This document shows positions 2,964-20,339 of a stretch of DNA of 40,640 bases, piece after piece. The position numbers were made by a program, and so were the translations under genes. Position 1 is the stretch's first letter. Each line of letters starts with the position of its first letter. The notes under the pieces are model-generated. The model ran no database searches and had not been told where the DNA came from. It worked only from the letters and a program-made list of their open reading frames with translations. Location: contig JAFVVS010000076.1 of NCBI GenBank assembly GCA_017502025.1, positions 1-40,640 on the forward strand, given 5' to 3'. Origin of the DNA: Alistipes sp. GTDB taxonomy: Bacteria; Bacteroidota; Bacteroidia; Bacteroidales; Rikenellaceae.

Positions 2964-3671
2964 TTAGTCGTTATCATCATCATTTGCCAACTCAGGATTG
3001 TAGAGCTGGCGGATAGACAACTCCAAAGTGCGAACATCGTCCCAACCATCCACATACGAGATGCGGAAGGTTACGATACGAGGCTGCAACTCGTCGTTTG
3101 CCGCAACAAAGAATGAGCATACGCCATTCTCGAACTTGAAACCATTTACGATGGTCTTGTCCGATGACCAAGCCGAAAGCTCGTGGTCCATACACGAGGT
3201 GCGCAAGCGGAACGAGAACTCGCCACCCTCCCATGGAATCTCCATACGAGTGCCATTCTCCAATCCGAAGAGCTCCTTGTCATCGTCGTGAATTGCGATG
3301 AAGTCCTCGAAACGGCCCTTCTGCTTAATCTTGATAGTATCACGACGGCTGTGCGACGAAAGTACCAAGCGTGCTACACGCTTGTCGTTGTTGTTCTGCT
3401 TGTGTTTGAAGTGGAGAGCCTCATTACCCTTACCTGGGCGAACTACGCCCTCGGTATCAACAAACGAGAGCCACTCCGAGCCCGAGATAATAGTTGCCTC
3501 GTACTCGATATTCGAAATAACGGCCAAGCGGCAAACATCCTCGGTGTTCTCCACTACCAAGTTGCTGGTCTCCGCACCCAACGCAACTACGGGGCGGTAC
3601 TCAGGGTAGTATGGCGAAGTACACGAAGCAAAAGCTACGACTGCCAATATTGTTACAAAAATCTTCTTCAT
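2964..3671 (-). CDS. BACON-domain lipoprotein, last gene of the SusCD operon
   Basis: This is a 235-aa lipoprotein with signal MKKIFVTILAVVAFASC (Cys17). I chose the ATG at 3671 because the longer frame starts at a GTG two codons upstream and adds nothing to the signal peptide. Two tandem beta-sandwich repeats are visible. The first (about 35-120) has SGSEWLSF followed by RVARLVLSS...DTIKIKQKG, the usual BACON layout. The second (about 140-225) ends in LELSIRQ. BACON domains are common accessory domains in Bacteroidota surface proteins and often bind carbohydrate or mucin, or act as spacers. It starts 9 bp after the preceding lipoprotein gene, and a terminator follows. A role as a surface glycan-binding accessory of the SusCD pore is inferred. 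The acidic Asn/Asp-rich tail (NDDDND) is unexplained. Confidence 0.85.
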   Translation of the reverse strand: MKKIFVTILAVVAFASCTSPYYPEYRPVVALGAETSNLVVENTEDVCRLAVISNIEYEATIISGSEWLSFVDTEGVVRPGKGNEALHFKHKQNNNDKRVARLVLSSHSRRDTIKIKQKGRFEDFIAIHDDDKELFGLENGTRMEIPWEGGEFSFRLRTSCMDHELSAWSSDKTIVNGFKFENGVCSFFVAANDELQPRIVTFRISYVDGWDDVRTLELSIRQLYNPELANDDDND

Positions 3672-3680
3672 AGTCACAAA

Positions 3681-4205
3681 TTATTTGCTTTGAGCAATGT
3701 TAGTGTGCTTCTCGAAGTCAATGTCCAAACGACGAACATCCAATCGAGCAAAACGCACAACGCCACTCTGGTTATCATTGTACTGCATTGGCAAGAAGGT
3801 TACACCTGCCTTGCCTCGTATCTTGCAGAATTTACCATCAGTCTCACCAAGCGGGAAGTACTCTACACCCTCCGCCACAGGGATAGACTCGGTCTGAATT
3901 CGGCCATACTCATCCTTGATGGTATTACCAGCCTCATCCTTCTTTGCCACATCATAGTGGTCTTTCAACCAACACCAAACCTCATCCTCGGTCTGCTGCA
4001 CGAGAGTTGCCTCCCACGGACCGGTAGCGGTAATCTGGAAGTAGTGAAGGCTCTCGCCATTCACACCCTTCTTAGATGCAGTCTTTGGAATAGTCAAGTC
4101 GTAGTTGTCGATAGTCAAAGGCTCTGTCAACTCGTAAGGCTCAACACACGATGTCGCTACAACAGCAGCGAAAATCACCGTAATTATTGCAAATATCTTT
4201 TTCAT
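3681..4205 (-). CDS. Small BACON-like lipoprotein downstream of SusD
   Basis: This 174-aa protein has a lipoprotein signal with lipobox VATSC (Cys20) and CVEPYE at the mature N-terminus. Its start codon overlaps the susD-like stop by one base, a layout that implies translational coupling. The body contains ITATGPWEATL and ends in GVVRFARLDVRRLDIDFEK, which recalls a single BACON-type beta-sandwich, although the match is weaker than in its neighbours. Its operon position between SusD and another BACON lipoprotein suggests an accessory surface-binding protein. No catalytic motif is visible, so a plain lipoprotein of unknown function is the safe reading. Confidence 0.8.
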   Translation of the reverse strand: MKKIFAIITVIFAAVVATSCVEPYELTEPLTIDNYDLTIPKTASKKGVNGESLHYFQITATGPWEATLVQQTEDEVWCWLKDHYDVAKKDEAGNTIKDEYGRIQTESIPVAEGVEYFPLGETDGKFCKIRGKAGVTFLPMQYNDNQSGVVRFARLDVRRLDIDFEKHTNIAQSK

Positions 4206-5932
4206 TACAATCCGTATTTATCGTATTCAGGGTTAGACAAATTGTAGTTCGAAAGGATAATCTGAGTATCCGGAATTGGATAGTACTCACGGCAAGGGCC
4301 CTCCTTTACAAACTCAACGATATCGTTGCCGGCAGAACCCTCGATTACTCGGTCGTACCAGATTCCCCAACGAACGAGGTTGTGACGACGAGTAAACTCG
4401 CCCAACAACTCACGACCAGACTCCTGCTCCAAGTCCTTCATGAACAACACCTCATCGGCGTGACCACCACTCAAATCCTGACGACCAGCACGCTGCTTCG
4501 AAGCATTGAGATAGTCGAATGCCAAATCCCAATTTCCGACACGCATATTTGCCTCGGCCAAGTCGAGAATAACGTGTGCGAAGCGGAAAATCTTCAGGTT
4601 ATTCGAGTCCTGGGTATAGATCATACCTGGGCACCAGAACTTATCGCCCAAATATGGACGGCCATCCTTGGTCTTTGTAGAGTTGAAGAAGTGTCCTCCA
4701 GGAGGGTTTGCAGGGTCGTTGATATCAACATTCTTATCCTTCCAACCCTTGTAACACCAAGCCAACCAGCCTGCACCACCCTCAATCTCAACAGCCTCCT
4801 GTGGAGTACACTTTGCAGGGTCGTAGGTTGCACGACGCTTATCCACGGCATTGTATGGCAACAAAGTCTTGTAGAGGTAGTTTGTTGGACGGTAAGGCGA
4901 AGTGGTACGAGCATTAATACCCAACTCAGGGATACGAACACCGTCGAAGATATCGTCCTTCTGCGAGAAGTCCATACCCTCCTCCTCGATCACCTCATCG
5001 TCGGCATCATCGACAGCACCCTCGACAATAGACGAGCTACGCATTGGAGTACAACGAGAAGCCAAGCCCTGAGTTACACGCAAACCATACTCCTTTGCAT
5101 ATCCCGGCAACTCCAAGATAGACTCAGGAGTGTAACGATTGCGGAACTGAACATCCTTCAAATCGTAGCCCATCAAGGCGTCACGAGGAGCGTAATTTCC
5201 ATCGCTATCAACCGTACCATAAACCTGCTCGATTGGAGCATAGAACTCGATTGCCTTGTCGAAACGCTTGTTCCACATAGCCAACTTGCCTGCGATAGTA
5301 AGACCTACCATCGAACCGATACGATAGTGGTTTGATGGGTCGTAAGTCTTAACAAATGGCAAAGCCTGCTTTTCGAGCAACCAATACTCCAACTGATCCA
5401 TCAACTCGGCACGAAGCTCCTTTGCCGGCTTACGACCCATCTGTGCGATACGGTCGTTGTTGGCATCGGTAATCTCCTCGAAGTAGTAAGGAACATCACC
5501 AAAGTTGATTGTAAGAATGTAGTAGTAGAATGCACGCAAGATAACTGCCTCTGCCAACAATGGAGCCTTCTCCTCGTCGGTGAGTGGAGCTCGCTCGATA
5601 GCGGCATAGATAGCGTTACAACGCATCACACCCTGATAGCATTGGTTCCAGATACTTGAACCAAAGCGAGGCAAAGACTGCGTAATGTAGCATCTTGCAT
5701 CAACATACGAGTCCGAGTTGTGATAGATCAAATCGGCAGCCACCTCGCACGCCTCGAAGTAGTCAGCATTCGAATAGAGGCTCTTCAGATTGACATAGCA
5801 TCCGTTAAGACCTGTCTGGCACTGCGGAATTGTCTGATAGTAGGTCTCCGGAGACGGATCGTAGAGTCGCTCTTCGAGAGTACAACCTACTAACGCAATA
5901 GCCGAAAGTATTATTAAAATCGTCTTCTTCAT
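4205..5932 (-). CDS. SusD/RagB-family outer-membrane ligand-binding lipoprotein
   Basis: This 575-aa protein (family usually 500-650 aa) has lipobox ALVGC (Cys17) followed by TLEERLYD, a typical SusD N-terminus. The N-terminal part shows the TPR-like helices of the family (LLAEAVILRAFYYYILTINFGDVPYY, quoted here only to its LRAFYYY core). The C-terminus has the family-typical helices (ILDLAEANMRVGNWDLAFDYLN), then RRHNLVRWGIW and the closing EYYPIPDTQI segment. SusD lids the SusC pore on the cell surface and captures the ligand. The gene starts 2 bp after the SusC stop. The ligand is unknown because no degradative enzyme is encoded in the operon. Confidence 0.95.
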   Translation of the reverse strand: MKKTILIILSAIALVGCTLEERLYDPSPETYYQTIPQCQTGLNGCYVNLKSLYSNADYFEACEVAADLIYHNSDSYVDARCYITQSLPRFGSSIWNQCYQGVMRCNAIYAAIERAPLTDEEKAPLLAEAVILRAFYYYILTINFGDVPYYFEEITDANNDRIAQMGRKPAKELRAELMDQLEYWLLEKQALPFVKTYDPSNHYRIGSMVGLTIAGKLAMWNKRFDKAIEFYAPIEQVYGTVDSDGNYAPRDALMGYDLKDVQFRNRYTPESILELPGYAKEYGLRVTQGLASRCTPMRSSSIVEGAVDDADDEVIEEEGMDFSQKDDIFDGVRIPELGINARTTSPYRPTNYLYKTLLPYNAVDKRRATYDPAKCTPQEAVEIEGGAGWLAWCYKGWKDKNVDINDPANPPGGHFFNSTKTKDGRPYLGDKFWCPGMIYTQDSNNLKIFRFAHVILDLAEANMRVGNWDLAFDYLNASKQRAGRQDLSGGHADEVLFMKDLEQESGRELLGEFTRRHNLVRWGIWYDRVIEGSAGNDIVEFVKEGPCREYYPIPDTQIILSNYNLSNPEYDKYGL

Positions 5933-5934
5933 AA

Positions 5935-8900
5935 TTAGTAGCGAATTTGAATTGCAAGTGAATAGTTACGGTTCTTCGGATAGCGACCTGTGTCGATACG
6001 ACGACCACCGCTTACTGCGTCAGGGTCAAAACCTGGGAACTTTGTGAAGAGAGCCACATTGTTTACCGATGCGGTCAAAGAGATATCACGCAAGTAGCGA
6101 GACTTCTTACGCAAGTCGAAACGGTAGCTCAAATTGATGTTCTGCAAACGCAAGTACGATGCATCGTAGATGAACAAGTCACTACCATAGCTATCGGTCA
6201 TATATGCACCAGGGATATTCGAGAATGGGTTACGGCTTGCGTGCCAAGCGCCCAACGCTCGACGATCCTTGTTTGAAGTTGCAGTACCACGCATTGTGGT
6301 AAACTCGATAATGTTGTACATACGACCACCAATGCTATAAGTGAAATATACACCCAAAGAGAGGTTCTTCACAATCTTGAAGGTATTGTTGAAACCTCCA
6401 TATACGATTGGGTCTGCCGAACCGAGGTAGATACGGTCCTTATCGTTCAACACGCCATCGTGGTTGATATCGGCATAACGAGCGTAACCACGAACCTTGC
6501 TCGAACCTACATAGGTCTTGGTCTGCTTGTTCTGGTTAATCTCGTCCTGAGTGTGCCATACACCCTCGAACTGGAAGCCCCACAACGAGTTTGCCGGATA
6601 ACCCTCTGCGTAACCATAGATCATATAACCACCACTCGAATAGGTCGATACGAAGCCACGAGCAGTTGCAATATCGATAACCTTCGACGAGTTGTGAGCA
6701 ACTGTCAAGTTGGTTGTCCACTGGAAGTTACGACGCGAGATATTACGAGAAGTGAAGGTAAACTCAACTCCCGCATTCTGGGTACTACCAATGTTTGCTA
6801 CACGAGTACCGAAACCGGTAACATTTGCATTCTGCATATTGTAGAGGAGGTCCTTGGTGTGAGCCATATAACCCTCCAACGACATTGTGATACGCTCATT
6901 CAAAATCGACATATCAACACCCACATTGAACGAATCGGTCTTCTCCCAAGTCAAGTTAGGGTTGTTGATACGGTTTGGATAGAATGCTACCTCATACGAG
7001 TCGCCAAACAACCAACCTGACTGGTTTGTTGTGAGCAACATCTGCGAAACATAGTTACCAACCGAGTCATTACCCGAACGACCACCACTGATACGGATAG
7101 AGAGGTCTGACAACCACGACTTGGTACCCTTCATAAACTTCTCGTTGCTGATGCTCCACTTGAACGCAGCTGCTGGGAAGAATGCCCACTGGTGACCACG
7201 AGCAAAGTTAGATGCCGCATCGGCACGACCTGTAAAAGTGAAGTGGTAGCGACCGCCATACGAGTAGTTCACACGACCCAACACCGAATAACGCTGCTTC
7301 ATCCACGAAGATGTGTTCGAATTGAGGCGTCGCTTATCGACGACAGCATCCATATTGTAGGCTGTTACATTGTCATCGAGGTAACCTGTACCACTCATAC
7401 TCAAATAGTCGTTGCGCTGGTTCTGTGCGGTGAATGCACCCACAACATCCAACTTATGCTTCTTCTTGAAGGTCTTCTTGTACGACAAAGTAGTCTCACT
7501 CAACAAGTTGTAAGTCTCGCTATTAGTACGAGTTGCAGTACCACCCTCGTGACGACGATCTGCAAGTGGCATGGTCGATGGCGAGTAGTTGAAGTTGTGA
7601 GTGTGAGTCAATGTGTAAGAGAACTGCGACTTCAACTTCAATCCCTTAGCCAAAGTAAGCTCAATATACGGAGTCAAGGTCAAGAGGTTACGATCGTAGG
7701 TGTTGGTCACATTCAACGCCTTCAAATATGGTGAGTCGTAGACCGAACCACCATTGGTACCGTTATCACCCAACAAGTTCCAAATCGAAGTTGGATCATT
7801 CATTGGGTTGAGGTTGGTTACAGCAACTGTCGAAGTACCCGAGATTGCGTTGCTTGCCTTATCCTGAATACGCTTCGAATAAGAGATATTAGCACCGAAC
7901 TTCAACCACTTAAATGCTTGGTGATCAAGCTTCAAACGAGTATTCAAAGTCTCCTGACCCGAGCTGATTACAATACCCTGATTGTTGTTGTAACCCATCG
8001 AGAAGTACACCTTTGTGCTCTTGCTACCACCCGACAACGAGAGGAAGTAGTTGTGAGAGAACGCCTTGCGGGTCATCACATCCAACCAATCGGTACCCTC
8101 GCCATAGCTTGCTGGGTTCTGGTATCTGTTGTAGTCCGACGAACGAGCCTGGAAACGATATGTACCGCTACTGTTGATAAAGTAGTCGTTACGATACTGT
8201 GCAAACTCCGCTGCATTCATCATATCCAACTCACGAGGCAACTCCGACATCTGGAATGTAGCCTTGAAGGTGATATTGAGCTTGTTAGCCTTAGCCTCGT
8301 GTGTAGTAACGAGGATTACACCATTCGCACCACGAGATCCGTAGATTGCGGTCGAAGATGCATCCTTCAACATGGTCACATTCTTAATCGAAGCCGGATC
8401 GAGGTCGGCAAAGCTACCTACGGCATCCATAACACCATCGACAACGATGAGTGGCTCATTCGATGCGGTGATTGAACGAGATCCACGAACACGAATCGAG
8501 GCAGCCGAACCCGGCTCTCCGTCGGTGGTCATAATCTCGACACCCGCCAAACGACCCTGCAATGCCTCATCAACCGAAGCAGCTGCGGTGTTTGCCAAGT
8601 CCTCCATATTCACCGATGTAACAGCACCGGTCAAGTCGCTCTTCTGCTGTGTACCGTAACCGATGACCACAACCTCGTTGATGTTCACATTCTCCTGCTG
8701 CAACACGATGTTGATGGTTGTACGGGTACCAACACGCTCTGTTACCTCCACATAACCGAGGAACGAGAACGAGAGCTGATCTTCCGATGTAGCCTTAATC
8801 TTATACTTACCCTGCATATCGGTAGTTGTACCTACGCTCGAATTACCTACCACTACAACGGTAGCACCGATCATAGGCTGTCCACTATTGTCGAACACCT

Positions 8901-9003
8901 GTCCCGATATGGTACGCGCCTTCTGCGCCATTGCTGTTTGGGCGAACAGCAGGGCCACGATGCAGAACGATGCGTAAATTACACTGTTAATTATGCGTTT
9001 CAT
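5935..9003 (-). CDS. SusC/RagA-family TonB-dependent outer-membrane transporter
   Basis: This 1,022-aa protein has a signal peptide cut after AMA (about residue 26). A carboxypeptidase-regulatory-like domain follows (about 30-115: GQVFDNSGQPMIGATV and GTTTDMQGKYKI). The family signature around NEVVVIGYGTQ leads into the plug (LQGRLAGVEIMTTDGEPG, SIRVRGSRS, LIVVDGV, STAIYGSRGANGVILVTT). A long beta-barrel ends in IQIRY with a terminal aromatic residue. There is no N-terminal STN domain, so it is not expected to signal directly to a FecR-type anti-sigma factor, and no sigma/anti-sigma pair lies nearby. It imports a SusD-captured oligomer or peptide into the periplasm using TonB/ExbBD energy. 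It starts 3 bp after the upstream EEP-like gene and is 2 bp from SusD. Confidence 0.97.
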   Translation of the reverse strand: MKRIINSVIYASFCIVALLFAQTAMAQKARTISGQVFDNSGQPMIGATVVVVGNSSVGTTTDMQGKYKIKATSEDQLSFSFLGYVEVTERVGTRTTINIVLQQENVNINEVVVIGYGTQQKSDLTGAVTSVNMEDLANTAAASVDEALQGRLAGVEIMTTDGEPGSAASIRVRGSRSITASNEPLIVVDGVMDAVGSFADLDPASIKNVTMLKDASSTAIYGSRGANGVILVTTHEAKANKLNITFKATFQMSELPRELDMMNAAEFAQYRNDYFINSSGTYRFQARSSDYNRYQNPASYGEGTDWLDVMTRKAFSHNYFLSLSGGSKSTKVYFSMGYNNNQGIVISSGQETLNTRLKLDHQAFKWLKFGANISYSKRIQDKASNAISGTSTVAVTNLNPMNDPTSIWNLLGDNGTNGGSVYDSPYLKALNVTNTYDRNLLTLTPYIELTLAKGLKLKSQFSYTLTHTHNFNYSPSTMPLADRRHEGGTATRTNSETYNLLSETTLSYKKTFKKKHKLDVVGAFTAQNQRNDYLSMSGTGYLDDNVTAYNMDAVVDKRRLNSNTSSWMKQRYSVLGRVNYSYGGRYHFTFTGRADAASNFARGHQWAFFPAAAFKWSISNEKFMKGTKSWLSDLSIRISGGRSGNDSVGNYVSQMLLTTNQSGWLFGDSYEVAFYPNRINNPNLTWEKTDSFNVGVDMSILNERITMSLEGYMAHTKDLLYNMQNANVTGFGTRVANIGSTQNAGVEFTFTSRNISRRNFQWTTNLTVAHNSSKVIDIATARGFVSTYSSGGYMIYGYAEGYPANSLWGFQFEGVWHTQDEINQNKQTKTYVGSSKVRGYARYADINHDGVLNDKDRIYLGSADPIVYGGFNNTFKIVKNLSLGVYFTYSIGGRMYNIIEFTTMRGTATSNKDRRALGAWHASRNPFSNIPGAYMTDSYGSDLFIYDASYLRLQNINLSYRFDLRKKSRYLRDISLTASVNNVALFTKFPGFDPDAVSGGRRIDTGRYPKNRNYSLAIQIRY

Positions 9004-9006
9004 CTG

Positions 9007-10065
9007 CTATTCCTCACTTTTAAGTGTAACAATAATTGGATGGTGCGCAAGTCCCGCCTCGGCTGTAAGCGATGCGTCAAAGTCGAATGTACGGAACATA
9101 TTCCAGCACTCGTCTGTTGCATAGACATTGTTGGCACGTGATCCATCTGTGCTCGATGCTGTATAAACCGAGTGATGTACGGCATTGCACTCTACCAAGT
9201 TGTAGTACATCATCAAGTTGCTAACGGTGAAATAGATATCATCCGCTGCAAGCAACTCCTCCACCGAGAAATATGTGGTCTCGGTTGCAAGGAAATCCTC
9301 CCAATAGAAGTCAGGATTATCTGCCGGAGCATCGTAGCAGTTCTCACGATAGAACTCCTTCTCGTACTTTACGATATCGAGATGCGAATCGGCATTTGTA
9401 TTGATTGCAAAGTACCAATTTACATCCTTCAAGAATGCCTTGTTATCTACGGTCTGCTTGATAATGTAAGAGAGCTCGCTCTTACGGGCAGCAAGGACAT
9501 CCGGAGTGTATACGAGTGGAACACTCTTCTTATTCTTGGTCATAGCCTCGACCTGAGCCTCCCAATCATCCGGAATAGCATTCTTGGCTGCGAGCAACTC
9601 CGTAACAACGAAGTGAATATCATTAGCCTTGAAGTGAAGTACCGCATTGTTGAGGGTAGCACCCTGTTGAAGAGTATAGACCTCGTTGATGGTCACACCA
9701 CTCTTCACGAGAGCAGCCATAACCAAACGATTGTCATCGTTGATTGCTACCAACGATTTCAAATTGTTCTCATTAGCATACCTATTGAACCAGTCCATAA
9801 AGTCGCGCTGCAATGTTGTACCAACAGTCTTTGGCGCAACAAACATAGCGACATCTGCGCTCTTCATCGAGAGATAGAGTGCCAACTTATCCAAGTTTAC
9901 ATCTCCCGCCTCGGTGAGGTTCAAGTAAAGTGTCGTAATCTCCATCTTGGTCTGCATATCGGTAACCTCCGCATCGATATCGTGGTCACGAGATACACCA
10001 ACCTCCTGGGTACAAGCTACCGCAAGGAGCGACACTGCAAATAGTGTATAAAGTATCTTTTTCAT
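9007..10065 (-). CDS. Lipoprotein resembling a degenerate EEP (endonuclease/exonuclease/phosphatase) fold
   Basis: This 352-aa protein has lipobox LAVAC (Cys18). The layout recalls the EEP superfamily: an opening TLYLNLTEAGD strand/loop, then SADVAMFVAP (where active enzymes have DVxxLQE), a central HFVVTELLAAKN (where enzymes have THL/DHL), and an end of RANNVYATDE...HHPIIVTLK that parallels the usual RIDY.....SDHxPV terminus. The metal-binding Glu, the Asp of RIDY and the Asp of SDH all seem replaced. If the fold call is right, this is a non-catalytic surface binder. The fold call is my inference from motif order only; an unrelated lipoprotein is possible. It overlaps the preceding gene by one base and ends 3 bp before SusC, so it is firmly part of the transport operon. 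Confidence 0.7.
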   Translation of the reverse strand: MKKILYTLFAVSLLAVACTQEVGVSRDHDIDAEVTDMQTKMEITTLYLNLTEAGDVNLDKLALYLSMKSADVAMFVAPKTVGTTLQRDFMDWFNRYANENNLKSLVAINDDNRLVMAALVKSGVTINEVYTLQQGATLNNAVLHFKANDIHFVVTELLAAKNAIPDDWEAQVEAMTKNKKSVPLVYTPDVLAARKSELSYIIKQTVDNKAFLKDVNWYFAINTNADSHLDIVKYEKEFYRENCYDAPADNPDFYWEDFLATETTYFSVEELLAADDIYFTVSNLMMYYNLVECNAVHHSVYTASSTDGSRANNVYATDECWNMFRTFDFDASLTAEAGLAHHPIIVTLKSEE

Positions 10066-10721
10066 TATTCAAGTCCCTTTTGAGTTAGCACACATTCTGC
10101 AGTATGCTCGTCACCCCAAGCATCTACAAACACTACTTCGATATTAGCAAAACGCTCTGCACCGTCATTTACCGCAAATGTAACCTCCAACTCCTTGCCA
10201 TTGCTGAGATACTCGATGCTCTCTACCCAATTCTCATTGGCCGAAAGGCGAATACCTGGACGGCAAGCGTCGGTAAGATTGGTATTGAACGGAACAACAC
10301 TCTTGGTTTCGGTAGCCTCGACAGTCACATCCGACAACTTCATCGAAGGAGTGATACCACGCTGCTTAACAACGATTGTATCGGCTACGAATCCGTCGTA
10401 GGTCTCTACTACGAGGTGTCCTACACGTGCAAAGTTGCGATTGTTCATCGACGATTCGTTCGAGTCGTAGCGAACGAATACATTGTATGCGTTCTGCTTC
10501 CACTCTGCATCGTCAACATGCAACCACTCGTGCACAGGACGAACCTTCCACACAAGTTTGCTTTCGCCATTAACAGTAATTGGCAACTGGAATGTACCGG
10601 CCTGTGCGGGTACCTCCTTCTCGGCAAGTACTCGACCTGTAACATCGATACGCTCCACCTTGGTACAGCTGCTCATCACGAACAAAGCTGCCATTATAAC
10701 GAGTAAATAAGTCTTCTTCAT
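10065..10721 (-). CDS. BACON-domain lipoprotein upstream of the EEP-like gene
   Basis: This 218-aa lipoprotein has a signal ending VMSSC (Cys19). I prefer the ATG at 10721 (MKKTYLLV...) over the one 33 bases upstream, which would add a charged 11-residue extension. Two tandem beta-sandwich modules are visible. The first is about residues 30-120 with HEWLHVDD and closing ADTIVVKQRG, a clear BACON signature. The second is about 125-218 with ENWVESIEY and closing AECVLTQKG. The layout resembles the lipoprotein that ends the operon, so these may be duplicated partners. Its stop overlaps the start of the next gene by one base. The likely role is a cell-surface accessory of the SusCD complex, with the ligand unknown. 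Confidence 0.85.
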   Translation of the reverse strand: MKKTYLLVIMAALFVMSSCTKVERIDVTGRVLAEKEVPAQAGTFQLPITVNGESKLVWKVRPVHEWLHVDDAEWKQNAYNVFVRYDSNESSMNNRNFARVGHLVVETYDGFVADTIVVKQRGITPSMKLSDVTVEATETKSVVPFNTNLTDACRPGIRLSANENWVESIEYLSNGKELEVTFAVNDGAERFANIEVVFVDAWGDEHTAECVLTQKGLE

Positions 10722-10760
10722 AATCTCATTCAATTTTTTAGTCAAACACTTCATTTACTC

Positions 10761-11669
10761 TTAGTTCTCGGGGTTAAATTCACCATTCTCACCCTCGAAG
10801 CCACCAATGCCATTGTCGAGCTCAACCTTCTTGGCAACTACGGCGTTCTCCGTAATAGCGCACTTCTCTACGATGAATGGACCCTTTACAGGAGTTGAAA
10901 TCTCGCCATTCTCGCCATAAGCGATCGACACAACGAAGTTCTCGTAGGTACCAGGAGCCATTGCGACCCATACCACCAACGGATTGTCGAGGGTTGAGTT
11001 TGTACCCTCTGGGAAGCCCTTGATAGCAACCTGGTTCTTACCATTCACGATAAATTCCTCGGCATAGCTGTCAGTTGCAATATCTCCAACGCAGTAGTCA
11101 TCGTAACCACCATCGGCGGTAACATTACCCACAGTTACCAACACCTCGGTAACATTTTGGATGTCGTAATGCAACTCTACCTTCACAAGTCCTGCGTGGT
11201 AGTCGAAAGTAACATTCTCCGACTTACCCTCTGCAAGGAATGTTGAGTTATACATCAAGTGGTCGAACTCGTTAGCATAGAACTTCTGCTCTGCCGGAAC
11301 GATTACTCGACCATCGAGAGCAGCCTTGTTGCCCTCGCTCACATAAGGCATATAGATGGTCAAATCGCCACCTACCACATTTCCGAAGAAATAGGCCTCA
11401 TTATCTCCCACTGTCGATTTGACAGGGATATAGCACTCATTCTCACCGGCGTTGGTGCCATAGATACCGATAGTGTGTGCCTCGTTCCACACATAGTTGC
11501 CGACTCCTGTGGCGCCCTTCAAAGTGAGGGGCTCCACAGTCGCCTTAACCATTGTGATTGCACCATTATCGACATTCGGCATCTCCTTCTCCGGTATGCG
11601 CTCTACACACGATACCAGCGCAAGCGAGAATATTGCCACAATGCTAAGTAATGATTTAATCTTACACAT
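10761..11669 (-). CDS. Fimbrillin-like lipoprotein
   Basis: This 302-aa lipoprotein has signal MCKIKSLL...LALVSC (Cys21). The frame also opens eight codons earlier at a TTG (11693), but the ATG at 11669 gives a cleaner signal peptide. After the lipobox (CVERIPEKE) the sequence resembles Mfa/fimbrillin-type beta-sandwiches of Bacteroidales: AHTIGIYGTN, ECYIPVKSTVGDNEAYFFG, LTIYMPY, then FDYHAGLVKVELHYDI and a WVAMAPGTYENFVVSI segment. This parallels the N-terminal head of the giant protein encoded just upstream (43 bp away), as if that head existed here without the repeat tail. It may be a surface adhesin or a stalk/anchor subunit. No pilus assembly genes are nearby, so polymerisation is not indicated. 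Confidence 0.8.
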   Translation of the reverse strand: MCKIKSLLSIVAIFSLALVSCVERIPEKEMPNVDNGAITMVKATVEPLTLKGATGVGNYVWNEAHTIGIYGTNAGENECYIPVKSTVGDNEAYFFGNVVGGDLTIYMPYVSEGNKAALDGRVIVPAEQKFYANEFDHLMYNSTFLAEGKSENVTFDYHAGLVKVELHYDIQNVTEVLVTVGNVTADGGYDDYCVGDIATDSYAEEFIVNGKNQVAIKGFPEGTNSTLDNPLVVWVAMAPGTYENFVVSIAYGENGEISTPVKGPFIVEKCAITENAVVAKKVELDNGIGGFEGENGEFNPEN

Positions 11670-11712
11670 TTGTTTTATTGTTTTATTTGTCAATTATTTC
11701 CGTTTTTGCTGG

Positions 11713-14700
11713 TTATTCGCCCTGCTCCGGATCTGCCGGAGTCTCCTCGGTAGCCGGAACATAGAGGATACAACCGTCAAACTCCTTCTCATCCGAAGTA
11801 GATGTCCAGTTTGCATCCCAAGGCTCGCCATAGATTGCGTTCATATAGTTGGTTGCATCAACCTTCAACTCGCCGGTTGCACCACGCAATACATATCCAC
11901 CAACCTCGCAATCGTTGATACCGATTGGCCACTCACCATCCGAGAGGTACTTAGACACATCGTTGCTGGTGTTCTGAGAGTAGACAAAGATTCGTGGCAT
12001 ACCAACAAGCGCACCAACATTTGTTGTAGCCTGCTCCAATGCGTAAATCTCGCCTGTGTTGCGGCACCACTGCATACCACCACGGTGTGCAATCTCTGCT
12101 CCATCACGCTTCGAAGGCTCTACTGCCGACCAGTAGTAACCTGCGATACCACCGGCATAACCGGTAGAACCTACGGCACCCTCGTTTACAGCGTACTCAA
12201 CACGGCAGTACTGATGCTCAGGCATATAGTTTGGATAAGCGTTGTTGTCCGAATACTTAGCACTACCCACTGCATAAGTTGCCGAGATATACTCACGCAA
12301 GATACCTGCGATACCACCGGCATACATATACTTAGCACCGTAACGGCCACGGGTTACAACCTTACCGTTCTCACGTATAACTACGATATCACCTGTATTG
12401 ATGGTTGGATCCTCCTCGGTACCGGTAATCTTCACATACCAGCTACCGCAACCGATGATACCACCCAAGATACCCGAGAAGCCGTGGATGCGACCCGAGT
12501 TCTTACAAGAGATGATTGTAGCGTTACAACCGTTCTCACGAGTACCAAGGTTACCACCTACTGCGGTATCGCTATTTGTCGAGTGACCGATACCACCTGT
12601 GTACTGACCAATGATACCACCAACAGCAGTGTTGTAGTAGTTAGCATTTGGCGATGCCACAGTATTGCTACGATCCCACTGAATCGAACCCGAGTTCTCG
12701 CAGTGGTCGCAGGTAACATTGATGTTACCATAGTGCTGTGTATAGCCGTTGTGACCCATATTTGCACTACCGAGGATACCACCTGCGTAGTTGTAGTTAT
12801 AGGTCAATACCATCGAAGTTGTACGATAGTCGATATTACCGCTATTCTTACAGTTATTGAACTGCAACTGCAACTGGCTCTTATACCACTTACCACCACT
12901 ATAGCCTTCGAGGCCGATGTTTGTACAACGGTCTGCTGCGCAGTGGAGAGCCTGTCCGAGGATACCTCCGGCAATCTGATATACCGAAGCACCTACCTCG
13001 CCATAGTGGATATCACCCGAGTTGTTACAAGAGTTGAAGATAGCATAGTGCTTATACTTCGAGAAGTCGCCCTCCAAGTTACCGAAGAGACGGTAGTCGA
13101 AGTGTGTAGCAACGATACCACCCATATTGATAAAGAAGGTGTGGATATACTTCTTACTGTCGATAACAGTTCCGATACCTGCGTTATCAACAGCGATTCT
13201 ACCCTCATTGTTTACTGCTGTACACTCCAAGTTACTTACAAGAACGTCAGCAATACCACCGGCAACGCTCAAACACTTTGCACCGCCGGCATTTGGAACT
13301 GTTACAGCCGCCTTGTTTGTACAACCAGACAACTTGTATGAGGTCTCCTTCATTGTTGTACCAGGCATCTTCGAGAGGTCCATCATACGGCCAATCAAAC
13401 CTGCAACATTCACACGCACGAACAAACGACGGTTCTGACGGTCGTTATCATCGACGTCAGACCACTGATACTCACCATTATCCTCCATATCGGCAGATGG
13501 TGTATTGTTGGTCGAAGCAGGTGTACCCAAGATGGTAACCTTACCATTGTTGGTCAAGCTACCCAAGGTGCAGATGTAAGCAGTAGTATTTGCCTGTGGA
13601 GTAAATACTCGACCGACAACACCACCAACATCGAAACGAGAGGTTGCCAACTCGCCAAGGTAGTCAACACGCAATGGGTTGAGCAAGCACTCATGAGTAA
13701 TCTCACCATTATTTACGCAACCCGACATATCGAAGTCGGTCTCACCTACGATACCACCAACTGCGATATCGTGAGTCATAATGTTACGCCAGTTATTAGC
13801 AGTAGCCTTCTCATCTTTCTCGTTGAAACGAGGACAAGTATTTCCTGCGTGACCTGCCGAGAGAATCTCACCGTTGTTCTCGCACTCATAGAGCGCAGCC
13901 TTCGAAGTCCAACCTGCGATACCGCCGATATATGCTCCGTCGCTTGCTATACCTTTATATATAATATTACCTGTGTTGTTACAATCCGAAATAGCCTTTG
14001 TCAATCCTACACCGCCATCGGTTGTTGGGTATGCTGTATTCATTGTTGCATAGCCAAATACACCACCAATGTAGAAGCTCTCAGGAATATTTCTTGCATT
14101 GGTCATATCAGGCACCTCAACAGTACCATTGTTGGTCAAACCGCTAAGACCGTTGTCCTTAGCTGTGAGATAGCCGAAGCCACCCGAAACATAAACCTTC
14201 GGAGCGTAGCCGTAGATTGTTACATTACCGTTGTTGGTCATACCATTCTGGAACTTACCTGCAACAACAGCGTCCAATTTGGTAATCTCGGTTGCTACAC
14301 CACCGTTCGAAGCCGCATTGGTTGTAACAGCACCAGCCAAACCACCAATACCACCAACACATGCCATTATCGAAGCCTCGCCCTTATACTCAACGACACC
14401 CGACGCAGCATTGTCAAACTGTACGGTATGCTTACCCTCGCGATACACACCGCAGTAACCACCTACGTAAGCCAAAGGCGACTTACCGGCATAGGTTACA
14501 CGACCTGTATTGCGGATACCGGTAGTACCTGCACCGGTATCAGAGTTATACGAGTAACCGAAGATAGAACCGATGTAGGTCTCAGCCGAAGTATTTGCTC
14601 GTGCCTCTACACTACCCGAGTTGTAGCAACCAGGATACTGCAACTTAATATTAAGTGTGTTAGCCAAGATACCACCAACATACAATACACGAACATTTAC

Positions 14701-17337
14701 ATCGTCCTCTACAATGATATCGCCTGTGTTAGCACAGTCGTTCATCTTGATGACAGCATTGTATCTTGCAGTACCGAGCAAGCCCGACACCCACATCATA
14801 CGAGAAGACGAGTTCGAAACCTTAACCAAGCCCGAGTTCGAGCAGTTGTAAATATCGTCGCAGTCTTCGCTGATATAACCGAACATACCCGAAGCAAACA
14901 CTGTTACGGTGCTGGTTGTTGGGTGGTTGTAGTTATCAGTCGCAACATTAACCTCCACATTTACTGCACCGTTATTCTTACAGTCTGCAATGTAGTCAGA
15001 GCAGAAGATACCAACGCAAGCCGAGCTGAAAATATACGAAGCGCCGCAGTACTGCCAACCGAAGTTTACATTACCGTCGTTGCTACAATTCTCGGTTTTA
15101 ACGCTCTCGCCAATGCCCAACACTGCCTTACGGCCAGCACGAACACCGATAACACCTGCGATAGCAGTATTCTTATCTACGGTTGCCTGGTGCCACTGAA
15201 TATCACCATTACCTGCTACTTCACCAGCGATGTTGAGGACTGCACTCTTCTTGTTGCTACAATCGCTAACCAACTCCGACCAAGTGAAACCTACTACACC
15301 GCCGAGTACCATATTAGCATTCTCAACCACAGCGCTTCCCTTAGGGTGGCTTGCGTGAGAAGAACCTGAACCGGTACAAGATGCACCAACATTATCACGA
15401 GCTACATAGTAGCACGAACCGAGGTACTCAATCGAACCAGAGTTTGTACAACCCTTAATCTCCTTTGTACCCTTCTCGGCATAAGCAACTACACCACCGA
15501 TGTTACAATTCTTATTAATCTTGAACGACTCACCGAAGTTGAGCTTACCGCTATTCTCGCAATCTGTAATAGAGTTTGCCTCCAACTTACCGAGCACACC
15601 ACCAATATTAGCCTTGGTAATCTCCTCGTTGATTGTGAGCGAGCCCTTGTTCTCGCAACCTTCAACCGAAACCTTCGATGCACCAATTACACCACCCCAA
15701 TCGAGGTCGAGCATTGGCTCGTTGATTGCAAGCGCACCTGTGTTGATGTTGCCCTCGAAAGAGCCATCGGTTACATAACCTGCAACACCTCCGATATATG
15801 GGAACGACTTTGTGCTCTCCGAGTTATCGTCCCAAACGATAGCACCATTGCTGGTGTTCTCTGCAACGACAGGGAGATTCTCGCCCTCAGCGCAAACATA
15901 ACCTACAACACCACCGATGCTTGGATAGAACTCCTTGCTCTTGCCGTCGGCACCTGCGATGGTTGTGATAGTGATATCGACATTGCTCTCAGCAAGCGAA
16001 ACCTTACCGCCATAAACACCACCGACAACACCACCGATGTTGATCAACTTATAATCATTCGAGAGTGCAAGGTCTGCATTCTTATACTCAACAGAACCCG
16101 TAGCCGAGCAGTTGAAGATTGTACCAACCTTGTCGCCAGATACTGTGAGCGAACGAGCAATAAGACCGGTCTTACCCTTTACTGTCTCTACGACAACACC
16201 CTCAACCTTAACATTCGAGATTGTACCTACTACATTCTCGCCGAAGAGAGGAGTTGTCAAGCCCTTAATCGAGTAGCCACGACCCTCGAACAACGAGTCG
16301 AAGCCATCCAACGACTCCCAAGTCTGGTCGGTCATATCCACATCCGAGATCATGAGCACACCGTCGTACTTGCTGTTGAAGGTACCAGCCTTAACCTCGC
16401 TTGCGAAAGTCTGCATATCGGCATCGGTACCGATGAGGAGCATATTATCGCAATCCTCCAAGTCGAACACGAGCGATGGGAACTCACGAACCTTACCACC
16501 GAGCAACTGCTTATCGCCTGTTGCATCGAAAGTTCTCGAATAAACCTTACCCGACTGCTCTACGAAGTTTACCTCGAAAGTTGTGTACTCACCCTTTGGA
16601 ACTACAATGTAGAATACATCCTCCTTCTCGTTCGAGAGCTTGTAGCTGTCGCCCTCGAAGCTGTAAAATACGGTAGGATAAGTACTCTTGCGAGCTTCGA
16701 GTGTTCCAGCCTCTACGCCATCCTTCTCGGTGCAATAGACATCGAACACACCTGCGATAGGAGCAGCATCCACTGTCGAAACCGAGATGTACTTCAAATC
16801 AACATCCTGACCCTCCTTAGCCTTGATGCTGAAACGGAGAGCTGTTGCGAGGTGCTCCATCTGGATCTCCTCGAAACCTGTTGTCCAGCCGTACATCGGA
16901 GCACTGTTCGGAGCGAAAGTGCCCTCGGTGTGCTTCTGCTCAGCAGAGAATACTACCGGATACTTTCCGCTACCTGCCTCGACAGCCACATCCTCACCAG
17001 GATAAGGATAGACGAGGTGGAACGGAATAGTAATTCCCATCGGCATGTCAAATACTGCAACATTTGGAGTCTCCTTGTAGATGGTAATACCGGTTGTCGG
17101 CTTACCATTGACTGCGAGAACATCGCTCTCGCACCACGATACAGGATACTTTCCATCGACCTTCTCGCCCAACTCTGTACGGGTTGGAACAGGCATCGAA
17201 ACTTGCAGCGTCTGAACTTCGCCACTTCCACTACCAGGACCCACTACAATTGGAGCCTGGCTCTCGGTTGGATCTTGCACGCAAGCAAAAGTTGCGAGCA
17301 GAACTACCGACATCAAAAGTTTAGTAAAATTTTTCAC
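11713..17337 (-). CDS. 1,874-aa fimbrillin-like / GLUG-like beta-helix repeat lipoprotein, first gene of the SusCD operon
   Basis: The start is a GTG at 17337, with no in-frame ATG giving a better signal. The lipoprotein signal ends ATFAC (Cys19). Residues of about 45-290 form a fimbrillin-like head (YPVSWCESDVLAVNG, GTFAPNSAPMYGW, MEHLATALRF). From about residue 330 (GYSIKGLTTPLFG) to about 1800 the chain is made of degenerate repeats of 40-60 residues. Each has a GG-[VI]-x-G core and usually a CxNxGxI core. I count about 29 GGxxG-type cores and at least 17 CxNxG cores, consistent with a long beta-helix. The C-terminus is short and acidic, with no type IX secretion domain. Acidic residues after the Cys suggest surface display. 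It may be an adhesin or an extended ligand-capturing stalk feeding the downstream SusCD pore. The lipobox and repeats are directly visible; the function is inferred. Confidence 0.9.
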   Translation of the reverse strand: MKNFTKLLMSVVLLATFACVQDPTESQAPIVVGPGSGSGEVQTLQVSMPVPTRTELGEKVDGKYPVSWCESDVLAVNGKPTTGITIYKETPNVAVFDMPMGITIPFHLVYPYPGEDVAVEAGSGKYPVVFSAEQKHTEGTFAPNSAPMYGWTTGFEEIQMEHLATALRFSIKAKEGQDVDLKYISVSTVDAAPIAGVFDVYCTEKDGVEAGTLEARKSTYPTVFYSFEGDSYKLSNEKEDVFYIVVPKGEYTTFEVNFVEQSGKVYSRTFDATGDKQLLGGKVREFPSLVFDLEDCDNMLLIGTDADMQTFASEVKAGTFNSKYDGVLMISDVDMTDQTWESLDGFDSLFEGRGYSIKGLTTPLFGENVVGTISNVKVEGVVVETVKGKTGLIARSLTVSGDKVGTIFNCSATGSVEYKNADLALSNDYKLINIGGVVGGVYGGKVSLAESNVDITITTIAGADGKSKEFYPSIGGVVGYVCAEGENLPVVAENTSNGAIVWDDNSESTKSFPYIGGVAGYVTDGSFEGNINTGALAINEPMLDLDWGGVIGASKVSVEGCENKGSLTINEEITKANIGGVLGKLEANSITDCENSGKLNFGESFKINKNCNIGGVVAYAEKGTKEIKGCTNSGSIEYLGSCYYVARDNVGASCTGSGSSHASHPKGSAVVENANMVLGGVVGFTWSELVSDCSNKKSAVLNIAGEVAGNGDIQWHQATVDKNTAIAGVIGVRAGRKAVLGIGESVKTENCSNDGNVNFGWQYCGASYIFSSACVGIFCSDYIADCKNNGAVNVEVNVATDNYNHPTTSTVTVFASGMFGYISEDCDDIYNCSNSGLVKVSNSSSRMMWVSGLLGTARYNAVIKMNDCANTGDIIVEDDVNVRVLYVGGILANTLNIKLQYPGCYNSGSVEARANTSAETYIGSIFGYSYNSDTGAGTTGIRNTGRVTYAGKSPLAYVGGYCGVYREGKHTVQFDNAASGVVEYKGEASIMACVGGIGGLAGAVTTNAASNGGVATEITKLDAVVAGKFQNGMTNNGNVTIYGYAPKVYVSGGFGYLTAKDNGLSGLTNNGTVEVPDMTNARNIPESFYIGGVFGYATMNTAYPTTDGGVGLTKAISDCNNTGNIIYKGIASDGAYIGGIAGWTSKAALYECENNGEILSAGHAGNTCPRFNEKDEKATANNWRNIMTHDIAVGGIVGETDFDMSGCVNNGEITHECLLNPLRVDYLGELATSRFDVGGVVGRVFTPQANTTAYICTLGSLTNNGKVTILGTPASTNNTPSADMEDNGEYQWSDVDDNDRQNRRLFVRVNVAGLIGRMMDLSKMPGTTMKETSYKLSGCTNKAAVTVPNAGGAKCLSVAGGIADVLVSNLECTAVNNEGRIAVDNAGIGTVIDSKKYIHTFFINMGGIVATHFDYRLFGNLEGDFSKYKHYAIFNSCNNSGDIHYGEVGASVYQIAGGILGQALHCAADRCTNIGLEGYSGGKWYKSQLQLQFNNCKNSGNIDYRTTSMVLTYNYNYAGGILGSANMGHNGYTQHYGNINVTCDHCENSGSIQWDRSNTVASPNANYYNTAVGGIIGQYTGGIGHSTNSDTAVGGNLGTRENGCNATIISCKNSGRIHGFSGILGGIIGCGSWYVKITGTEEDPTINTGDIVVIRENGKVVTRGRYGAKYMYAGGIAGILREYISATYAVGSAKYSDNNAYPNYMPEHQYCRVEYAVNEGAVGSTGYAGGIAGYYWSAVEPSKRDGAEIAHRGGMQWCRNTGEIYALEQATTNVGALVGMPRIFVYSQNTSNDVSKYLSDGEWPIGINDCEVGGYVLRGATGELKVDATNYMNAIYGEPWDANWTSTSDEKEFDGCILYVPATEETPADPEQGE

Positions 17338-17613
17338 GCTAATAGTTTTTAAAAAAGTTTGAAATTATTGTTTGTAAAATTTTGTTGTTTGTTCTCTCTT
17401 TTCCGGTTTTCCTCGCACACACGAGCGCAGTGTGCGTGCGCAAAAAACAAAAAGATTACTCGCTCCGCAATCTCTGCGAGGCGACCAATCTCTACCACAA
17501 CGGGCCTATACTACGCAATAAGCCCTCATAATTACCGCAATATCATCGTTTTAGGTTCTACCGTGCGCAATGCGTCCATCACACACAGTTCGTTTTAGTT
17601 CAAAAAGGTGACA
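17338..17613 (-). promoter_or_regulatory. Long structured 5' leader of the SusCD operon
   Basis: About 270 nt separate the predicted transcription start (near 17605) from the GTG at 17337. The promoter-proximal two thirds are GC-richer than usual for leaders here and hold stem-loops: CGCACAC/GTGTGCG at 17414-17420 and 17430-17436, and nested CTCGC/GCGAG with CGCA/TGCG around 17459-17480. The start-proximal 75 nt are AT-rich and unstructured. A 15-codon minus-strand frame (17532-17579) begins soon after the start site. Such a leader could support attenuation or control by an RNA or RNA-binding protein. It matches no riboswitch class I can recognise. Confidence 0.45.
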
Positions 17614-17644
17614 CAAAGGTAGGCATTTTTTCTATATAAACAAA
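17614..17644 (-). promoter_or_regulatory. Promoter of the giant-lipoprotein/SusCD operon
   Basis: On the minus strand TTTG (17641-17644), exactly 19 nt and then TACCTTTG (17614-17621) reproduce the Bacteroidetes consensus. Transcription should begin near 17605. No flanking inverted repeats of the kind seen at invertible promoters were found. Confidence 0.8.
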
Positions 17645-18480: not shown

Positions 18481-19602
18481 ATGAAGAATCTATTCGCAAT
18501 TTTAGCACTTGCTCTCGCCGTATCGTGCGGAGTAAAGCAGGAGGTAAAACTTTTGGATAAAGCCGACTTTGAGACCACGGTCGATGGTAAAGCCGTATCG
18601 CTCTACACACTCAAAGCTGGCGACCTTGTGATGCAGGTGACAAACTATGGCGCACGAGTAATCTCGTTGTGGGCACCCGACCGCAATGGCAACTATGCCG
18701 ATGTGGAGATTGGTTACGAGAATATCGACCGCTACATAAATAATACAGGTGAGCGTTATCTCGGTGCGGTTGTAGGTCCTGTGGCTAACCGCATTGCCAA
18801 CGGCAAATTCTCGCTCGACGGCAAGGAGTACACCCTGCCACAGAACAATAACGGACAGACCTTGCACGGCGGAACTCTTGGCGTTGACCGCATCGTTTGG
18901 GATGTAAAGGAGGTTACAGAGAGCAAGATTGTATTCTACTGCGAGTTACCTGACGGACAAGACGGTTTCCCTGCAAACCGAGCAATTTCGATGACATACG
19001 AACTCACACCGAACAACGAGTTCGCAGTATCGTATAACGCAACAACCGACGCAAAAACAGTATTAAACCTCTCGCACCACTCGTTCTTCAACCTCGAAGG
19101 CGATGGCGAAGGCACAATTCTTGATCATATTCTCACCATTAAGAGCAAAGCGATAACTCCTGTGAATGAGTATCTTATCCCTACAGGCGAAGTTATGTGC
19201 GTGAAGGATACTCCGTTCGACTTCAACGAGCCACACGCCATTGGCGAGCGTGTAAATGCCGACCACGCACAGCTCAAAGCGGGTGCCGGCTACGACCACA
19301 ACTGGATTATCGACCGTGAGGACAATGGCGAGGTCATCAAGGTTGCCGATGTGTATTCGCCAAAGAGTGGTCGAGGTATGGAGGTATATACCGACCAAGT
19401 GGCGTTGCAGTTCTACTGCGGCAACTTCTTCGACGGCTCATACAACAACAAATTCGGCAAGCCAATCCTCTATCGTGGAGCGATTGCCCTCGAAACACAG
19501 CGTTATCCGGATGCGCCAAATCAGGCATCGTTCCCAAGCGTGGTTTTGGAGCCCGGACAAACCTATAAGCATACTTGCGTTTATAAATTTTATGCAAAAT
19601 AA
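18481..19602 (+). CDS. galM: Aldose 1-epimerase (mutarotase), lipoprotein form
   Basis: This 373-aa protein interconverts alpha and beta anomers of galactose, glucose and related sugars. A lipoprotein signal (LALAVSC, Cys16) places it in the periplasm, probably anchored, as is common for Bacteroidales mutarotases. Family landmarks are NYGARVISLWAPDR, the substrate-site VGPVANRIANGKF, NGQTLHGG, LSHHSFFNLEG with the conserved His pair, and the late VVLEPGQTY carrying the catalytic Glu. It begins a plus-strand group with deoD 9 bp downstream and an S1/P1 nuclease after that, so it may process sugars released outside the inner membrane. Gene symbol follows family membership; substrate preference is unknown. 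Confidence 0.95.
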   Translation: MKNLFAILALALAVSCGVKQEVKLLDKADFETTVDGKAVSLYTLKAGDLVMQVTNYGARVISLWAPDRNGNYADVEIGYENIDRYINNTGERYLGAVVGPVANRIANGKFSLDGKEYTLPQNNNGQTLHGGTLGVDRIVWDVKEVTESKIVFYCELPDGQDGFPANRAISMTYELTPNNEFAVSYNATTDAKTVLNLSHHSFFNLEGDGEGTILDHILTIKSKAITPVNEYLIPTGEVMCVKDTPFDFNEPHAIGERVNADHAQLKAGAGYDHNWIIDREDNGEVIKVADVYSPKSGRGMEVYTDQVALQFYCGNFFDGSYNNKFGKPILYRGAIALETQRYPDAPNQASFPSVVLEPGQTYKHTCVYKFYAK

Positions 19603-19611
19603 TCGAATATT

Positions 19612-20325: not shown

Positions 20326-20339
20326 ATACCTATATTACT

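Follow-up and report, generated by a model that had tools for sequence, protein, structure and literature searches.

Here we analysed a 40,640-base stretch of DNA from Alistipes sp., an uncultured gut bacterium (contig JAFVVS010000076.1 of GenBank assembly GCA_017502025.1), called the window throughout, which is one whole contig (C62) of a 2.06 Mb source genome in 151 contigs that is estimated to be 85% complete. Its minus strand carries an operon of eight open reading frames (ORFs), g1 to g8, running from position 17337 to 2964, in which the importer pair SusC and SusD follows g4, an EEP-family (PF03372) lipoprotein without the catalytic residues of its hydrolase relatives. We consider it fairly probable that this Alistipes operon encodes a capture and import system free of enzymes, derived from operons that joined an EEP hydrolase to SusCD, with g4 re-used for binding or as a scaffold and with expression tuned by an RNA leader; the evidence is read most economically as a complex that captures and imports without any enzyme. 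What is new here is the SusCD operon with a disarmed EEP protein and a candidate RNA regulator, the SusCD type of importer itself being well known.

Loss of the catalytic residues in g4

The gene g4 (9007 to 10065, minus strand, 352 amino acids) had been labelled EEP-like in an earlier note made from the letters of the window, and the label is borne out by profile comparison: a profile of 12 g4-type proteins, trimmed of their signal peptides, aligned with a profile of 21 intact EEPs over its full length (266 columns, probability 97.8). When match columns alone were compared the score was 89, the best of 300 column shuffles reaching 26.7. The reversed profile scored 12.3. When whole genomes were searched with the g4 profile, 31 weak and short matches appeared (E values from 1.9e-7 to 6.6e-4), of which 18 coincided with EEP genes found by a separate EEP search. 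These comparisons point to membership of g4 in the EEP superfamily by descent.

In the merged alignment the glutamate of the QE/CE motif, the histidine of the LH motif and the aspartates of GDFN and SDH, by which an EEP hydrolase is recognised, are present in all 21 EEPs, whereas the g4 proteins keep the glutamate, the histidine and the SDH aspartate in 0 of 12 cases each and the GDFN aspartate in 4 of 12. What g4 has retained is the asparagine of WNI (12/12), the asparagine of GDFN (12/12) and the histidine of SDH (10/12), each of them found in 21/21 EEPs. In EEP enzymes the QE glutamate is a metal ligand, and in enzymes such as APE1 the active-site asparagines and histidine make phosphate or active-site contacts. 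The ratio of nonsynonymous to synonymous substitution rates (dN/dS) of g4 is 0.14 to 0.17 among the window and its relatives G047 and G057 (G, C and L numbers being our handles for genomes, contigs and loci) and 0.21 against G005, with no internal stops. These values are comparable to those of g1 to g3 and higher than those of SusC (0.08 to 0.12, and 0.15 against G005) and of the neighbouring gene ung (0.03 to 0.07). Because the catalytic residues were lost while dN/dS stayed between 0.14 and 0.21, g4 looks like a maintained pseudoenzyme under purifying selection.

No hydrolase, carbohydrate-active enzyme (CAZyme) or lyase was found above the Pfam or NCBIfam cut-offs among the eight operon proteins, nor was a peptidase recognised above cut-off, the sole peptidase-named match of g1 being a sub-threshold one to the M26 N-terminal region model (11.8 bits against a cut-off of 27.7). 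The absence of an enzyme claimed by the earlier note thus stands as regards CAZymes, peptidases and hydrolases above cut-off, and needs amending in that g4 is a decayed relative of the EEP hydrolases. A Pfam scan of 26 ORFs in the window, two of them shadow ORFs, likewise recognised no sigma, anti-sigma, ECF, sensor or hybrid two-component protein, the contig ending at base 1. In these scans the operon shows neither of the two features by which we tried to recognise a polysaccharide utilisation locus, a carbohydrate enzyme and a linked protein regulator.

Sister operons with an intact EEP

The source genome contains 15 matches to PF03372, two of which lie directly beside SusC genes, on contigs C16 and C93. 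The order on C93 is a fimbrillin-like protein (Mfa_like_1), a BACON_2 protein, an EEP with intact motifs, SusC, SusD, two large lipoproteins (DUF5689 and BACON above cut-off in one, DUF5689 below cut-off in the other), a metallo-beta-lactamase-like protein (below the Pfam cut-off here and above it in the relative G002) and a second EEP. The operon on C16 resembles it, a contig end lying upstream of its BACON gene. Sister operons with an intact EEP also occur in the relatives G167, G189, G002, G143 and G054; G002 and G143 have the same order as judged by gene size, position and motif, the proteins scanned being those of G002 apart from its small gene before the EEP. Inspection of 36 EEP loci with flanks of about 1.5 kb placed SusC directly beside the EEP in six, C16 and C93 included, and in G054 SusC adjoins the EEP at one locus and is separated from it by a lipoprotein gene at a second. 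What the sister operons have in common with the window operon is an EEP at or near the 5' side of SusC, the succession from fimbrillin-like protein to SusD seen on C93, and SusCs that are 45-49% identical to that of the window. They differ in their intact EEP motifs, in the DUF5689/BACON lipoproteins downstream and, on C93, in the additional metallo-beta-lactamase-like protein and second EEP.

The SusC of the window is 49% identical to the SusCs of C93 and C16, and 24-30% identical to four other SusCs of its own genome. A SusC tree was built from 24 rows, 23 of them different. In it the 12 SusCs accompanying a dead EEP fall on one side of a branch with support 100/99, and the eight accompanying an intact EEP, a status judged for two G054 rows from the GDxN and SDH motifs alone, fall on one side of another branch with support 99/96. 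Because all the EEPs compared retain their catalytic residues, the simplest history would place the catalytic loss in the ancestor of the dead-EEP clade. Furthermore, because an intact EEP fills the slot of g4 in the sister operons, the missing enzyme is probably a derived loss within a lineage of EEP-SusCD operons, and not the sign of an operon built without an enzyme.

Other EEP genes were seen apart from these operons. Contig C132 of this assembly (L069:8698-13543) carries five EEP-family genes in tandem, and other species of the genus have tandem lipoproteins of about 835-850 amino acids with C-terminal EEP matches (L080, L162), near a SusC gene in G054. A match to the solved mannosyl-6-phosphatase 4c1r had suggested the EEPs to be mannose-6-phosphatases; it vanished when the profile was built from eight EEPs (five adjacent to SusC, two second EEPs and one from G137), and was presumably caused by the C132 tandem EEPs or their like. 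The best matches of the eight-EEP profile were instead to nuclease-type EEPs, weak ones that spanned part of the length (2v0s, E 1.6e-8; LINE-1 endonuclease 8sp5, E 5.1e-7).

Conservation of the operon

Strong matches to g4 (E at most 3.5e-15) were found in 12 of the 268 genomes of the family, all belonging to one Rikenellaceae/Alistipes genus. Eleven of these loci are uncut by a contig end (window, G047, G057, G005, G068, G049, G070, G138, G167, G189 and G166), G058 being split between contigs. The genes g1 to g6 and g8 stand in conserved order in all 11, as expected of the single unit that the earlier note had proposed to check by synteny, and a recognisable g7 is present in nine, its slot being occupied in G070 and G166 by a different small lipoprotein gene (BACON above cut-off in G070). 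The ten named loci with a g4 relative come from metagenome-assembled genomes called 'Alistipes sp.' or 'Rikenellaceae bacterium', six of them from the hindgut of sheep, yak, water buffalo or water deer. All ten coincide with genomes already counted and add no further evidence.

The gene ung is present in 171 of the 180 genomes of the genus. We examined its 30 best-matching loci together with flanks of roughly 1.5 kb, and g1 adjoins ung in all 12 loci whose ung is at least 88% identical (a contig end falling inside g1 in one of them, G181) and in none of the other 18, for which reason the operon seems to be fixed in a single subclade; G166 has it at another place. On the plus strand of the window, at 18481-21119, genes for an aldose epimerase, a nucleoside phosphorylase (PNP) and an S1/P1 nuclease are divergent from ung, the S1/P1 gene being near ung in 9 of the 12 operon loci. 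Contig C119 of this assembly encodes three tandem proteins that are S1/P1-like by eye.

Promoter, terminator and a covarying leader

An exact match to the Bacteroidetes sigma-ABfr type of promoter, for which the consensus is quoted in PMC7366714, lies before g1 (TTTG-N19-TACCTTTG, 17644-17614, minus strand). At the other end a strong hairpin followed by a T-run (2945-2912, minus strand) forms the intrinsic terminator; the region 2960-2905 folds at -32 kcal/mol (z -7.9), an energy as low being reached by none of 200 shuffles. One promoter and one terminator thus bracket the operon as the earlier note had it, the hairpin lying just outside the interval marked there. Exact sites of the form TTTG-N17..22-TAnnTTTG number three in the window against 0.65 expected, a count reached in 1 of 100 shuffles. 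The two further sites are at 2901-2870, after the terminator, and at 19649-19616, and none lies inside the operon, imperfect matches not having been searched. The TAnnTTTG box upstream of g1 aligns in 7 of the 7 loci aligned.

If transcription starts just past the motif, the operon would have a 5' leader of about 276 nt (17338-17613, minus strand); the 5' untranslated regions of B. theta average 52 nt with a median of 32 nt (PMC7366714). Alignment of 11 leaders, excluding G070 (too diverged) and G166 (motif not found), revealed two stems common to all of them: stem 1 at 17502-17525 and stem 2 at 17451-17493, both on the minus strand, the latter followed by a U-run, terminator-like and with 7 of its 16 pairs changed on both sides. 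The RNAalifold consensus has 22 pairs, eight of them with two-sided changes, a number matched by 3 of 500 shuffles, and its count of 22 further pair types was matched by 18 of 500. Across the alignment 92.1% of cells are paired, and 18 cells have two-sided changes against a shuffled mean of 7.0 (0/500 as high). The covariation score was 0.333 against 0.219 in shuffles (0/500 as high) and at most 0.157 when the structure was slid by one to three columns; this structure is the consensus of the very sequences counted, which favours it over the slid controls, and kinship alone can beat shuffles. The stretch of the window itself folds as well or better in 2 of 200 shuffles. In its own genome the leader covariance model found one strong copy of 98 bits, the next match, among the 150 of 1130 candidates that were scored, having 26 bits and E 0.05. 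No Rfam family matches the window. A seven-codon frame, MRAYCVV (17529-17506, minus strand), is a candidate reading frame that overlaps stem 1, and nine of the 11 leaders have an equivalent frame of 7 or 10 codons, with a cysteine codon in eight of the nine. A guessed antiterminator pairing of UGAGG with CCUCG was rejected, as it had no covariation support.

The leader is hence a candidate attenuator, with stem 2 resembling a premature terminator, and the earlier note's statement that the operon has no regulator would hold for proteins and miss the RNA. The stems could instead be the terminator of ung or a separate small RNA with no part in regulating the operon, in keeping with the terminator-like stem 2 and its U-run lying downstream of ung on the same strand; we find this somewhat doubtful, as a conserved promoter-type motif sits between ung and the stems and the window has no other TAnnTTTG box in the 420 bp that precede the start of g1, while G068 and G049 do have more.

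The surface lipoproteins and the SusCD pair

The eight genes described in the earlier note were recovered as a tightly packed minus-strand set, neighbours being at most 19 bp apart: g3/g4 and SusD/g7 overlap by one base and the remaining gaps, taken from the called ORF starts, are 2, 3, 3, 6 and 19 bp. SusC (g5, 5935-9003, 1022 amino acids) exceeds both Pfam and NCBIfam cut-offs (TonB-dependent, TIGR04056) and adjoins the lipoprotein SusD (g6, 4205-5932, 575 amino acids, above the Pfam cut-off), the arrangement that defines a SusCD importer. A lipobox was recognised by eye in all seven non-SusC proteins, which gives the six lipoproteins of the earlier note together with SusD. The nearest solved relative of SusC is 8aa4 (E 6.9e-168), which belongs to a dextran utilisome (PMC7618045); other solved relatives are RagA (E 2.8e-110) and BT_2264 (E 4.6e-43).

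No family was found above the Pfam or NCBIfam cut-offs for g1, g2, g4 or g7. The first gene, g1 (11713-17337, 1874 amino acids), has 20 repeats of GGxxG type and 15 of C/N/S-x-N-x-G type, shuffles giving about one of each and at most five, so that the giant repeat lipoprotein announced earlier is real; its beta-helix is a prediction from these repeats. The N-terminus of g1 is weakly fimbrillin-like by profile comparison (52.9 against 22.3 in shuffles). A Mfa/fimbrillin-like nature emerged from the same approach for g2 (10761-11693, 310 amino acids), which scored 152 against at most 20.6 in 60 shuffles and aligns strongly with stretches containing domains that Pfam calls Mfa_like. The BACON-type lipoprotein g3 (10065-10754, 229 amino acids) matches BACON_2 below the Pfam cut-off (20.4 against 25) and g8 (2964-3677, 237 amino acids) matches BACON just above it (25.6 against 25), the two being homologous by profile (64 against at most 21 in 100 shuffles). 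The small lipoprotein g7 (3681-4205, 174 amino acids) has no Pfam match, and a BACON assignment for it was abandoned, hhalign giving no link to g3 or g8 (21.0 and 16.0, with shuffles up to 26.3 and 20.1).

A second giant repeat lipoprotein gene follows the operon directly (window 1-2731, minus strand). It is open at the contig end and at least 910 amino acids long, shares some 27-33% identity with the g1-type proteins of relatives, and has a promoter motif of its own at 2901-2870; in G167, likewise, a related giant gene lies on the downstream side of g8. The plus-strand ORFs 407-1669 and 1952-2491 were discarded as genes and read as shadows of this second giant gene.

Proposed mechanism and alternative readings

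The relatives of the window operon would form a recurring type composed of a fimbrillin-like lipoprotein, a BACON lipoprotein, an EEP hydrolase, SusC, SusD and BACON/DUF5689 lipoproteins. In the window, transcription would start about 276 nt upstream of g1, as the motif suggests, and the conserved leader would probably tune it. The giant repeat, fimbrillin-like and BACON lipoproteins would make up the surface part that meets the ligand, with g4 most likely acting now within the SusCD complex as a lipoprotein for binding or scaffolding, after which SusD would close over the ligand and SusC would import it with TonB energy, lid closure and TonB-driven import being established for SusCD systems (PMC7618045, PMC7782687). 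Because the operon encodes no hydrolase, the ligand would be expected to arrive already small and soluble. A phosphodiester-like ligand is suggested by the ancestry of g4 and a peptide, by analogy, by SusCD precedents with bound peptides; between these and the other classes proposed earlier the sequence does not discriminate. More specifically, and quite tentatively, a surface phosphoester hydrolase may have become a metal-free binder, in which g4, keeping the asparagines and mostly the histidine without the metal ligands, would grip a phosphodiester-type ligand uncut and pass it to SusCD, in an operon switched by a leader that is absent from Rfam and has a terminator-type stem.

Several observations weigh against the reading of an enzyme-free, leader-tuned importer with an EEP-derived g4. 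Pfam gave no match of g4 to EEP, BLASTP of g4 against the sister-operon EEP gave nothing (E 0.26), a first hhalign of the g4 and EEP profiles matched 59 columns at the N-terminal end only, and the g4 profile matched no solved structure, the best E being 1.8, to xylanases. When gap columns were shuffled as well, the real score of 94 was exceeded by two of 200 shuffles (133-135); these outliers did not recur when match columns only were shuffled, and shuffled gap columns were perhaps their cause. The retention of the GDFN aspartate by some g4 proteins makes the decay uneven, and the rows of the residue counts are kin sequences, not independent events. Both the EEP fold of g4 and the SusCD complex are predictions from sequence, and attenuation is a putative role proposed from the structure of the leader. 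A generic sigma-70 and terminator scan gave promoters and terminators not above chance and did not list the end hairpin or leader stem 2. The leader model had no match in G070, G166 or the sister-operon stretches searched, so that the leader does not characterise the family as a whole. Finally, the C16 sister operon is 99-100% identical to contig C55 of G167 in EEP and SusC, though the window-type operons of the two genomes clearly differ, and it may stem from a misbinned contig or a recent transfer; the nearest SusC seen to that of C93, in G189, is not identical to it.

That the hydrolases act in trans, from intact EEPs such as those on C93, C16 and C132 or from the S1/P1 nuclease near ung, and that the operon is the import half for a phosphodiester such as nucleic acid, would agree with the many PF03372 matches of this genome, with the weak and partial kinship of the eight-EEP profile to nuclease-type EEPs, with two intact EEPs just downstream of the operon on the opposite strand in G166 and with a PNP near ung in 12/12 operon loci. 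We nevertheless judge it rather unlikely, as the S1/P1 gene was not found near ung in three operon loci (G068, G049 and G058), an intact-EEP query at 1e-20 matched only 6 of the 12 operon genomes, and the cluster of PNP and S1/P1 genes also stands without an adjacent operon in G163 and G166, which also weakened a nucleic-acid reading drawn from these neighbours. A peptide importer like RagAB of Porphyromonas gingivalis or BT2261-2264 of Bacteroides thetaiotaomicron, the dead EEP being a structural leftover, seems unlikely: the solved relatives of SusC include RagA and BT_2264, but since the best one belongs to the dextran utilisome, SusC kinship is no pointer to peptides, and neither g8 (no solved chain at E of 1 or less) nor the g7 profile (none at E of 10 or less) found a solved match. 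It is highly improbable that g4 remains catalytic through some altered chemistry, for which one could cite the two asparagines, the mostly retained SDH histidine and the purifying selection, given that the QE glutamate and the SDH aspartate are gone from 12/12 g4 proteins.

Comparison with known systems

Where a SusCD system lacks CAZymes, its ligand is often unassigned. In such a setting the sister operons with intact and dead EEPs amount to a natural controlled comparison of the enzyme slot beside SusC, one that bears on whether an enzyme can turn into a capture protein. The leader, in turn, is a candidate RNA switch for a SusCD operon to which no protein regulator was recognised as linked; otherwise, SusC genes are known to be controlled at the RNA level through small RNAs (FopS/RbpB, PMC11697453). 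A search of the open-access literature, which misses most subscription journals, found no published account of an operon joining EEP and SusD, or SusC and a pseudoenzyme.

Like the window operon, BT2261-2264 and RagAB are SusCD importers, although their SusCs are more distant from that of the window than the dextran one is; neither is known to have a surface hydrolase, or an EEP-like or giant lipoprotein. Their ligands are peptides, and oligopeptides are present in the structures (PMC7782687). The phosphate-utilisation PusCD systems of Flavobacterium, as described in PMC8115612, resemble the window operon in that SusCD is tied to phosphoester and not to glycan chemistry, and differ from it in being induced by phosphate starvation and accompanied by phosphatases or phosphodiesterases; the table of that paper lists its one EEP protein as an orphan. 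The levan and dextran utilisomes of Bacteroides thetaiotaomicron share with the window operon a SusCD core surrounded by surface lipoproteins, and the dextran one supplies the nearest solved SusC. According to the account in PMC7618045 they carry a surface glycoside hydrolase and a glycan-binding protein, in contrast to the EEP-derived pseudoenzyme and the giant repeat lipoprotein of the window operon. A utilisome is recognised by a stable, stoichiometric association of SusCD with its surface lipoproteins, which for the window operon would be a prediction from its genes.

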